A stretch of 64,000 nt of DNA from Candidatus Tectomicrobia bacterium (lineage in GTDB: Bacteria; UBA8248). The stretch covers positions 81,311 to 145,310 of the forward strand of contig JACPUR010000004.1 in assembly GCA_016192135.1 (NCBI GenBank), given 5' to 3'. The notes under the pieces are model-generated. The model was not told the DNA's origin. It saw only the letters and a program-made list of their open reading frames with translations, and made no database searches. Made by a program: the position numbers and the translations under genes. Below are positions 5,441-8,779 of this stretch, one piece after another. Numbering within the stretch: position 1 is the stretch's first letter; every line of letters begins with the position of its first letter.

Positions 5441-5902
5441 TCAGGCGGCGGGGGCGGAGGCGCCCGGGGTGAGGAGGAGGATCATGGCCTCGACCCGCAC
5501 GCGGGAGACGATGGAGTGGGTGACGAGGCAGTCCTTCTCGGCGAAGGAGAGGATCTCCTGGGCGAGGGCGCGGTCGCCGTCCGGGGGCAGGGCGACGCGG
5601 GCCTTGATGAGGATCTCGGTGAAGAGGAACTCACCCTCGGGGCGGGCGAGGGTGCCCTCGGCCTCGGCCTCGAAGGCCTGGAACTTGAGGCCCCGGTGGT
5701 AGGCGGTGCCGAGGAAGGTCATCATGAAGCAGCTGGCCTGGGCGGCGACGAAGAGGTCCTCGGGGCTCCAGACGCCCTCGTGGCCCTTGAACTCGGGCGG
5801 GGTGGCGACCCGGATGGCGGGCTTGCCCCCGGCGCTGAGAAAGCCCTGGCGCTCGGACTCCCAGATGACCCCCACCTTGTAGCGGTATTCCTTCGGACGC
5901 AT
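5441..5902 (-). CDS. OsmC/Ohr-family thiol peroxidase-like protein
   Basis: 153-residue OsmC-fold protein. The two redox cysteines are in place: C58 in AAQASCFMMTFL at the start of the long central helix, and C125 in EKDCLVTHSI. In OsmC/Ohr these reduce organic hydroperoxides. ATG at 5902 (MRPKEYRYKVGV) is preferred over the in-frame upstream codon at 5941 because it begins at the conserved first strand and follows AAGGTG. The SPEDLFVAAQASC stretch is typical of general OsmC-like proteins, so the physiological substrate is uncertain. A tiny Cys-containing frame follows 7 bp downstream. Confidence 0.85.
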   Translation of the reverse strand: MRPKEYRYKVGVIWESERQGFLSAGGKPAIRVATPPEFKGHEGVWSPEDLFVAAQASCFMMTFLGTAYHRGLKFQAFEAEAEGTLARPEGEFLFTEILIKARVALPPDGDRALAQEILSFAEKDCLVTHSIVSRVRVEAMILLLTPGASAPAA

Positions 5903-6117
5903 TTGCACCTTCCCACCTCCCCGTCGCGGCAGGGCCCGCACCCGGCGCCGGGCCCTTCCAGACCATATCTTCCAAAATCCGTGCCCTTGGATAAGATGAT
6001 TGTTTTTAAATGACTTATGAATTCAGCGCCCCTTCGCGGCGGGCATTTGGGCCACGGGAGGGGCATTCCGCCCCACCGGGGGGTGCCCGGGAGGCCGGAA
6101 AGGGTGTATATTGGATT

Positions 6118-6133: not shown

Positions 6134-6164
6134 GTTTATGGCGCGCGCCGCGGGAGGAATCCCT

Positions 6165-6443
6165 ATGGAATGGCTGGTGATGGGCCTCATTCTTTTCTTG
6201 GTGGCGTTCTCGATCTACTACCCGCAGCTTCCCTACGCGGCCTCGGTGTACGGCCGCTTCCGCCGCCCCCGCCGGCTCGTCTGCCCCGCGACGGGAGAGC
6301 GCGTCCCGGTGCAGATCGACGCGGCGCGCGCGGCGCGCAAGGTGATCTTCTCGGGCGCGCCCGAGCTCCGGGTGAAGGACTGCGCCCGGTGGTGGAACGG
6401 GGAGAAGGACTGCAGGCGGGAGTGCATCGGCCGCCTGCTCTGA
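6165..6443 (+). CDS. Small membrane-anchored Cys4 protein, paralogue 1
   Basis: 92 residues; ATG at 6165 follows GGGAGGA at 6152-6158. One N-terminal membrane helix (residues about 4-25) is followed by a cytoplasmic or periplasmic domain with four cysteines: C40 (VCPATGE), C73 (KDCARW), C83 and C87 (KDCRREC). The protein aligns over its whole length with the next gene: both share YGRFR, a CP-x-TGE turn, a DA-x-RAAR segment, PE-x-R-x-x-DC-x-RW and C-x-x-REC or CRREC endings. The four conserved cysteines suggest one bound metal ion, perhaps zinc or an iron-sulfur cluster. I recognise no named family. Confidence 0.7.
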   Translation: MEWLVMGLILFLVAFSIYYPQLPYAASVYGRFRRPRRLVCPATGERVPVQIDAARAARKVIFSGAPELRVKDCARWWNGEKDCRRECIGRLL

Positions 6444-6458
6444 CGAGGGAGGCCCGTC

Positions 6459-6734
6459 ATGTTCGCGAATCCGCTGTGGCTCGTCTTCTCCATCGTTGCG
6501 CTGGGCGGAATCTACGTCCTCGCCCCCGCCGCCGCGCACGTCTACGGCCGCTTCCGGTCCAGGCGCCAAGTGATCTGCCCGGAGACGGGGGAGAAGGCCT
6601 CCATCCAGCTCGACGCCGGGCGCGCGGCCCGCACCGCGCTGTTCGGGGAGCCCGAGATCCGGCTCCTGGACTGCCGCCGCTGGCCCGAGCGCCGCGGCTG
6701 CGGCCGGGAGTGCCTCAAGGAGGCGGCGGCCTAG
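6459..6734 (+). CDS. Small membrane-anchored Cys4 protein, paralogue 2
   Basis: 91 residues, starting 15 bp after paralogue 1 and clearly a tandem duplicate of it. N-terminal membrane helix at about 5-27, YGRFR at 29-33, then C40 (ICPETGE), C72 (LLDCRRW), C81 and C85 (GCGREC). Between the two copies the cysteines, the TGE turn and the RAAR segment are preserved while the rest has diverged, which indicates selection on the Cys4 site. Probably co-transcribed with paralogue 1, possibly forming a heterodimer; function unknown. Confidence 0.7.
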   Translation: MFANPLWLVFSIVALGGIYVLAPAAAHVYGRFRSRRQVICPETGEKASIQLDAGRAARTALFGEPEIRLLDCRRWPERRGCGRECLKEAAA

Positions 6735-6735
6735 C

Positions 6736-7404
6736 TCAGGGCGCCAAGGCGTCGGGCCGCGGGAACTCCTGCGGCCAGGCGGCGACGGCATCCTCCAGGT
6801 AGCGCTTGACGGTGCCCGGGTCGAGCCGGACGGAGCGCTTGATCTTGTTCACCTCGCCCTCGCTCTCGAGGGGGATCCGCAGCGAGTCCATGAAGCGGTT
6901 GAACATGTTGAAGAAGCCCGCCATGAGGGTGAGCTCGACGAGCTCGGCCTCGGAGAAATGCTCCCGCGCCGCCTCGTAGACGTCGTCCCGCTCCCGCGCC
7001 GTGTTCCGGGTGACGTGCTCGGCCCAGAGCACGGCCGCCTTCTCGCGGGGGGTGAGCAGGGGCGAATCCATGTAGCCGTCCGAGCCGATGGCCTGGACCT
7101 GATCCTCGGTGATGCCCGCCGCTTGACCAAGGGCGGTGTTGTGGGCCAGTCAGTAGGCGCAGCCGTTCACCTTGCTGGTCTTGATGACGGCCATCTCCTT
7201 GATGCGCGACGAGAGCAGGCTGCCCGCCCCCTCCCGCTGGAGCACCGCGTTGAACGGGAGCATCACCCGCGCCACGTGCGGCGTCCGGGCCAGCGCCCGG
7301 TAGGAGTGCGGCACCCGCCCGAGCATCTTCGTCACGGCCTCGTAGAGGCGGGCCACCTCGGGGCCGGCCGCCTCAGGCTGAACCAGGTTCACCCGTTCCT
7401 TCAT
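6736..7404 (-). CDS. AhpD-like (carboxymuconolactone decarboxylase family) selenoprotein, UGA decoded as Sec
   Basis: 222 residues if the UGA at 7152-7150 is read as selenocysteine. The frame stays open on both sides. Upstream gives a normal AhpD-type N-terminus and IKTSKVNGCAY. Downstream continues LAHNTALGQAAGITEDQV through a typical all-helical C-terminus. The UGA falls exactly where the family has the second Cys of its CxxC redox centre, giving C82-A-Y-U85-x-x-H88. A hairpin with a GGUC loop begins 13 nt after the UGA, as in bacterial SECIS elements. AhpD-type proteins reduce peroxides or disulfides, and Sec in place of the resolving Cys is known in this superfamily. ATG at 7404 overlaps the rdgB stop by 4 bp. 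Ordinary annotation would split this into two hypothetical pieces. A nonsense mutation is the main alternative. Confidence 0.8.
7116..7136 (-). promoter_or_regulatory. Candidate bacterial SECIS hairpin
   Basis: On the minus strand CCGCC (7136-7132) pairs with GGCGG (7120-7116), CTT (7131-7129) pairs with AAG (7124-7122), C7121 is bulged and the loop is GGTC (7128-7125). The loop starts 21 nt after the UGA, and the GGUC loop resembles that of the E. coli fdhF SECIS. It lies within the coding sequence, as bacterial SECIS elements do. Confidence 0.65.
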
Positions 7405-8036
7405 CCCGTCCTCCTCCGGCCGCGCATGGGCCTATATGGGTTTTCCGCCAGCTCCCGGGCCAGCCACCCGCGGAAGGCCGCGAGGGCCCTCCCCCGGTGG
7501 CTGATCCGGTTCTTGGTTTCGAGATCGAGCTCCGCCACCGTGCGCCCCAGGGAGGGCAGGTAGAGCAGCGGGTCGTAGCCGAACCCGCCCTCCCCCCTCG
7601 GCTCCGCGAGCACCCTGCCCGAGAGTTCGCCCTCGAAGAAGCCGAACCGCCCGCCCGGCCGGACGAAGGCCAGCACGCACACGAAGCGCGCCCCGCGCCG
7701 CGCCTCCTCGACGCCCGCGAGGCGCTCAAGCAAGAGGCGGTTGCGCCCGGCGTCGTCCAGGCCCTCGCCGCCGAAGCGGGCCGAGCGCACGCCCAGCTCG
7801 CCCGGCAGGGCGTCCACCTCGATGCCCGAGTCGTCCGCCAGGGCGGGAAGGCCGCCCGCGCGGCACGCCGCCTCCGCCTTGAGCAGGGCGTTCTCGGCGT
7901 AGGTGGAGCCGGTTTCCTCCACCTCGAGGGAGATGCCCGCCTCCTTCGGCGTGACCACACGCACCGGGAGGCCGGCCAGGGCGGCGCCCACCTCCCGGGC
8001 CTTCCCGGGGTTTCCGCTCGCGAGCAGGAGGATCAC
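7401..8036 (-). CDS. rdgB: XTP/dITP diphosphatase (RdgB/HAM1)
   Basis: 211 residues. It hydrolyses non-canonical purine triphosphates (dITP, XTP) to monophosphate and pyrophosphate, cleaning the nucleotide pool. Signature segments are all present: SGNPGK at the N-terminus, [17 protein letters not shown] in the middle, [12 protein letters not shown], and SHRGRAL near the C-terminus. GTG at 8036 is used, overlapping the rph stop as GTGA (8033-8036); the downstream stop overlaps the ahpD start as ATGA (7401-7404). The three genes are therefore translationally coupled. The rph-rdgB pair is a common bacterial arrangement. Confidence 0.93.
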
Positions 8037-8779
8037 GCGGAGGGGAGATGCTTCGCCTGAAGCTCGAGGAGCCGGGAGGCGCCCTCCCCGGCGAGCCGCA
8101 GGAGCCGGTTGAGGTCGGGCCGGCCGAAGGGCGTCCGCTCGGCCGTGCCCTGGAGCTCCACGAAGCGGCCCCTGTCGGTCATCACCACGTTCATGTCCAC
8201 GTCGGCGAGGGAGTCCTCGCCGTAGTCCAGGTCGAGGAAGGCCGCGCCCCCGATCACCCCCACGCTCACGGCCGCGACCGCCCCGGTGAGAGGACTCTTC
8301 GCCATCTCTCCCCCGCGGGCCAGCGCGGCCAGCGCGTGGGCGAGGGCGACGTAGCCGCCGGTGACGGCGGCGCAGCGCGTGCCGCCGTCCGCCTGGAGGA
8401 CGTCGCAGTCGATGTAGATCGTCCGGGGGCCGAGCCGGGAGAGGTCCACCACCGCGCGCATGGAGCGCCCGATGAGCCGCTGGATCTCCATGGAGCGCCC
8501 GCTCCGCGCGCGCTCGCGCGGCACGCGCACGTTGCCGCTCCCGGGGAGCATGGCGTACTCGGCCGTCACCCAGCCCTCCCCGCTCTCCTTCTTGTGGGGG
8601 GGCACCTTCTCCTCCACCGTGGCGGTGCAGAGGACCCGGGTGTGGCCCATCTCGATGAGGCAGCTCCCGGGGGCGGTCCGGATGCAGCCGGGCTCGAAGC
8701 GGACGGGGCGCAGCGCGCCGGGGGCGCGCCGGCCGGCGCGCGGCGGAGCGGCGGACTTGGGATGGGCCGGGCGCGGCAT
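8033..8779 (-). CDS. rph: Ribonuclease PH
   Basis: 248 residues, phosphate-dependent 3'-5' exoribonuclease that trims tRNA 3' ends. Conserved RNase PH segments are seen: [17 protein letters not shown], then [33 protein letters not shown], a [19 protein letters not shown] phosphate-site region, and [18 protein letters not shown] short Arg/Pro-rich N-terminal extension precedes the usual start. First gene of the operon rph-rdgB-ahpD. Confidence 0.95.

Follow-up and report, generated by a model that had tools for sequence, protein, structure and literature searches.

A stop codon inside a peroxidase-like gene of this Candidatus Tectomicrobia genome almost certainly encodes an active-site selenocysteine (Sec). 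The gene (6736-7404, minus strand) lies within the window – the whole 64 kb stretch of DNA that was analysed – and its frame runs from an ATG at 7404-7402 to a TGA at 6738-6736, giving 222 codons, of which only codon 85 (7150-7152, minus strand) is an internal TGA. The internal TGA occupies the second cysteine position of a CxxC motif in the context NGC-AY-U-LAHN, at 7152-7150 as the initial annotation had described it, and reading of the frame bears out the further claim that AhpD-like sequence continues for 137 codons beyond it. The terminal stop is TGA too, like the internal codon. Standard annotation would truncate the frame at codon 84 and overlook the active site. When every TGA in the 64 kb window was scanned for long flanking frames with coding-like GC3, as a search for other UGA-interrupted genes, only the codon-85 site was convincing. 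The selenoprotein reading already proposed for the gene is supported by conservation of the TGA, by the Sec machinery of the genome, and by conservation of a downstream hairpin among relatives; judged from these sequence comparisons, the gene is a genuine bacterial selenoprotein gene and falls within the AhpD-like CxxU kind already known.

The TGA and the frame beyond it are conserved. An orthologue (60-81% identity) occurs in 15 same-family genomes, and in each of them it has one TGA and no more, at codon 85, with the frame open after it; the frame-breaking changes that were sought downstream of the TGA in close relatives were not seen. A scan of species genomes for homologues gave 80 loci, which stem from Ca. 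Tectomicrobia, similar 'Nitrospinota' MAGs, Rhodospirillales, SAR324, and Betaproteobacteria MAGs. The initial annotation had proposed comparing relatives for Cys and TGA at this codon, and both are found: among 136 aligned copies, in which some loci are counted twice because they were taken from two collections, 114 have TGA at codon 85, 14 have Cys (TGC/TGT), and eight have something else, these last being distant copies without the CxxC motif or, for one copy (L024), a one-codon misalignment. Substitution patterns indicate that purifying selection acts downstream of the TGA, with dN 0.122, dS 0.44 and dN/dS about 0.28 relative to the congener, and the same regime is seen upstream.

The Cys copies bear on how the site has evolved. 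When 84 close copies (75 Sec and 9 Cys) are placed on a tree, rooted at the midpoint only, those with Cys fall into just two clusters, each nested among Sec copies, and this nesting suggests Sec-to-Cys replacements within the subfamily. One cluster comprises L085, L096, L102, L104 and L111 and the other L139, L146, L147 and L150; the SECIS loop has decayed in both.

A predicted bacterial SECIS hairpin lies directly downstream of the UGA (7116-7136, minus strand), with 8 bp, a one-base bulge, and a GGUC apical loop at 7125-7128. Counting from the U of the UGA, the hairpin spans nucleotides 17-37 and the loop nucleotides 25-28, such that the spacing from UGA to loop is 21 nt; the GGUC-loop hairpin of the initial annotation, 21 nt after the UGA, is thus present at 7136-7116. 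The published limits for bacterial SECIS elements are a loop of 3-9 nt with G in the first two positions, a stem of 4-16 bp, a distance of 16-37 nt from the UGA, and a minimum free energy of at most -7.5 (PMC13188914), and the hairpin falls within them with its 4-nt GGUC loop, 8 bp with a bulge, 21-nt spacing, and -11.2 kcal/mol. That energy belongs to the 31-nt hairpin core (z -1.7). The energy of the 61-nt stretch around the hairpin is no better than that of shuffled sequences (z +0.65) and alone gives no support, and an Rfam search with the hairpin gave no match. Because the hairpin on its own is unremarkable for DNA of 70% GC, the case for it rests on comparison.

The comparative evidence covers synonymous constraint, covariation, and the contrast between genes with and without the TGA. 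A set of 76 distinct close TGA genes gave 88 testable codon columns; those with the lowest synonymous variation are the four at 94, 93, 95 and 92, and codons 92-95 are exactly those that form the loop and upper stem of the hairpin. The preferred codons at columns 94, 93, 95 and 92 are CAA (97%), GGT (96%), GCG (93%) and CTT (88%) respectively; outside these columns, the genes encode Gly with GGT in 11% of cases, Leu with CTT in 11%, and Gln with CAA in 30%. Pairing at the first five stem positions holds in 94% of cells over 84 distinct TGA sequences, with 32 changes on both sides of the stem – mostly at the closing pair, where U-A becomes C-G – although these counts come from related sequences and are not independent events; slid versions give 25-55% pairing. 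The GGUC loop is present in 79 of the 84 TGA genes and in 17 of 19 distant paralogues, as against none of the nine close Cys genes, in which the closing pair is never formed and the loop is GGCG, GGCA or GGCC. The contrast of the TGA genes with the Cys genes, together with the distant paralogues, is strong, and it is such comparative evidence that raises the hairpin above chance.

The initial annotation had also supposed that Sec machinery is encoded elsewhere in the genome, and this stands for tRNA-Sec, SelA and SelB, with SelD not found in the assembly. The assembly that contains the window (at C4:81311-145310) is 3.92 Mb in 41 contigs and 96.8% complete. It contains one tRNA-Sec over the cut-off (74.8 bits, anticodon UCA) and one SelB over the cut-off (389 bits), and reading of the sequence places a SelA frame upstream of SelB, with an alpha/beta-hydrolase-like frame in between. 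No SelD over the cut-off was found in this draft assembly, the best match being one of 83.5 bits on contig C13; it was rejected as SelD since its sequence reads as a ThiL-like kinase. Most same-family genomes have a SelD over the cut-off, each with one in-frame TGA. Both tested neighbours of selD in the congener (G002) were sought in the present genome, with nothing or only short scattered matches found, and because these neighbours are missing too, the selD block is either unassembled or absent. The joint absence of SelD and its neighbours fits an assembly gap or a loss.

The protein belongs to the AhpD/CMD family, CMD standing for carboxymuconolactone decarboxylase. It scores above the cut-offs of the Pfam CMD model (PF02627; 39.9 against 23 bits) and of the AhpD core domain (TIGR00778; 31.1 against 27.8 bits), and just below that of the TIGR01926 peroxidase-related enzymes (76.3 against 81.8 bits). 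An AlphaFold model built with 30 homologues is a single helical AhpD-like domain that spans the UGA position (mean pLDDT 95.2), in which the CxxU motif starts a helix at residues 83-95, and Foldseek matches it with probability 1.00 to the AhpD-like structures 2prr, 6k40 and 2gmy, and also to the debrominase Bmp8. The redox motif is C82-A-Y-U85 (7150-7161, minus strand), with CxxC in the Cys homologues, and E70, C82 and C/U85 are invariant among the 30 homologues. Both elements of the M. tuberculosis-type AhpD site that lie at or before the motif are present, namely the CxxC/U pair and a Glu 12 residues ahead of the first Cys, here Glu70 (codon at 7195-7197, minus strand), which we take to be the catalytic glutamate of AhpD, its role being presumed from what is known of that enzyme. 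At +4 from the second Cys, where AhpD usually has His, stands N89, with a conserved H88 at +3, and on this evidence the proton relay and other mechanistic details may therefore differ from those of the usual AhpD.

The product is very probably an AhpD-like oxidoreductase of the thiol/selenol peroxidase type, in which Sec takes the place of the second active-site Cys by way of SelB and the GGUC hairpin. At the UGA of codon 85, SelB would deliver Sec-tRNA(Sec) for decoding and would itself bind the GGUC-loop hairpin that begins 14 nt downstream of the UGA, within the coding sequence. The protein so made would carry a CxxU redox pair at a helix N-terminus together with the invariant Glu70. The established AhpD scheme assigns the peroxidatic role to the second Cys and the resolving role to the first. 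By analogy the selenol of U85 would make the attack, most likely on a hydroperoxide or other electrophilic substrate; C82 would resolve it as a selenenylsulfide, which we infer is then reduced by a dithiol partner.

One rival account is that of a pseudogene or a sequencing error, in which an ordinary AhpD gene with CxxC would have acquired the TGA by nonsense mutation or through a misread base, as the interrupted frame and the missing SelD might lead one to think. It deserves next to no credence, and is refuted by conservation of the same TGA with an intact frame in independently assembled genomes, 15 of them from the same family and others from different phyla; the purifying selection downstream and the maintenance of the hairpin at the synonymous level also stand against it. 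It is very improbable, too, that the TGA is a true stop that ends an 84-residue peptide, with a second protein made from a later start. Such a start codon exists, for example M112, from which 111 aa would be translated (7071-6736); however, the predicted fold is one domain whose CxxU helix spans the UGA, the Cys homologues are continuous, and codons 86-111, ahead of any such start, are strongly conserved in both protein and RNA. The frame would equally be open if UGA were read as Trp or Cys, by suppression or in a recoded genetic code, and this explanation has a similarly slight chance of being correct: UGA is the terminal stop of both the selenoprotein gene itself and rdgB, the genome encodes tRNA-Sec, SelA and SelB, the hairpin goes with the TGA and is lost in Cys genes, and the aligned homologues have Cys rather than Trp at this position. 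The reading as Sec is further favoured because five other paralogues in the same genome carry TGA at the same site.

The reaction catalysed is a separate matter, and a selenoprotein with some other thiol-redox activity, such as disulfide reduction or reductive dehalogenation, would differ from the peroxidase-type enzyme in this respect only. This alternative is possible, if the less probable of the two: the fold matches the Bmp8 debrominase as well as AhpD, the His is at +3 and not +4, and the many paralogues suggest diverse substrates, but in its CxxU pair and Glu70 the protein agrees with AhpD, and any particular alternative reaction would here be conjecture.

AhpD-like selenoproteins with a CxxU motif were described in 2005 from 27 Sargasso Sea sequences (PMC1088965), followed in 2008 by 299 'AhpD-like 1' sequences from GOS (PMC2398784), and a 2026 review (PMC13188914) lists them. 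The present gene is a well-supported addition to this kind, known since 2005, and shares with the Sargasso/GOS family the AhpD/CMD fold, a Sec that replaces the second Cys, a SECIS directly downstream, and the existence of Cys homologues. Unlike those members, which come from environmental reads, it is located in a near-complete genome of the Ca. Tectomicrobia kind, follows rph-rdgB, and has several paralogues; its best NCBIfam subfamily score is just under the cut-off. It resembles the AhpD or peroxidase-related structures 2prr, 6k40, 2gmy and 2o4d/2ijc in fold, in the CxxC site, and in the Glu 12 residues before the first Cys, although these have Cys where it has Sec, and 2ijc has the His at +4 where it has Asn, with His at +3. 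Two further AhpD-related families with a CxxU/CxxC site are NF041238 (AhpD_rel_CFYUT) and NF053654 (GroundWater_YciW), and the gene is outside both because its scores of 44 and 69 bits are far below the respective cut-offs of 175 and 310. It offers a clean, genome-anchored example with a SECIS backed by comparative evidence.

What stands out more than the gene is its lineage, in which AhpD-like CxxU genes are unusually numerous. In the present genome the CxxU site has a TGA in six AhpD-like frames (L017, L018, L019, L020, L022 and L024) and Cys in one more (L021), and others are without. In one same-family relative (G008) there are 17 TGA/CxxU copies (L050, L162-L167, L170-L175 and L177-L180), although the exact number is uncertain because of an estimated 5% contamination. 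Tentatively, and with the odds against it, the Ca. Tectomicrobia/UBA8248-type lineage may have expanded the AhpD/CMD fold into a large set of Sec enzymes with divergent substrates, in which non-redox tandem copies might be partner subunits; if so, the set would amount to a selenoenzyme toolkit without a described precedent in this fold. A search of the open-access literature found no paper that treats Tectomicrobia and selenoproteins together, which is weak evidence of absence, and a lineage-level expansion of CxxU AhpD-like genes may be previously unreported. A lineage with many Sec residues on one fold could help in asking what AhpD-like selenoproteins do and why Sec is retained or lost.

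Tandem pairs of a TGA copy and an AhpD-like copy without an in-frame TGA occur at L134, L138, L140, L143, L148 and L149, and in the relative with 17 copies at C49:16559-17974 and C104:2332-4423. In the betaproteobacterial loci the copy without TGA lacks both Cys and Sec at the motif and is perhaps a partner subunit. The loci in two MAG records, titled Chitinophaga pinensis and Bordetella parapertussis (L143 and L149), group with uncultured Betaproteobacteria, and the names of the records are probably wrong.

The selenoprotein gene lies downstream of two genes that read in the same direction. Its start overlaps (ATGA) the end of an rdgB-like XTP/dITP pyrophosphatase gene (7401-8036, minus strand; start codon approximate), and rph, encoding ribonuclease PH, is located upstream (8033-8779, minus strand). 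The placement with rph and rdgB given in the initial annotation extends across the family, in which the rph-rdgB-selenoprotein linkage is conserved: the TGA-bearing copy adjoins rdgB in 15 of 15 genomes with an orthologue seen, the G007 copy being that on C157 (L063/L087) and the G003 contig ending within rdgB. The ATGA overlap and this conserved adjacency suggest co-transcription. Two adjacent in-frame small paralogous ORFs (6138-6730, plus strand), each with a hydrophobic N-terminus and a Cys-containing C-terminus, are convergent to the selenoprotein gene and are found near it in relatives. An OsmC-like gene of the Cys form (5441-5941, minus strand) also lies near the AhpD-like gene, and its place is kept in the closest relatives.
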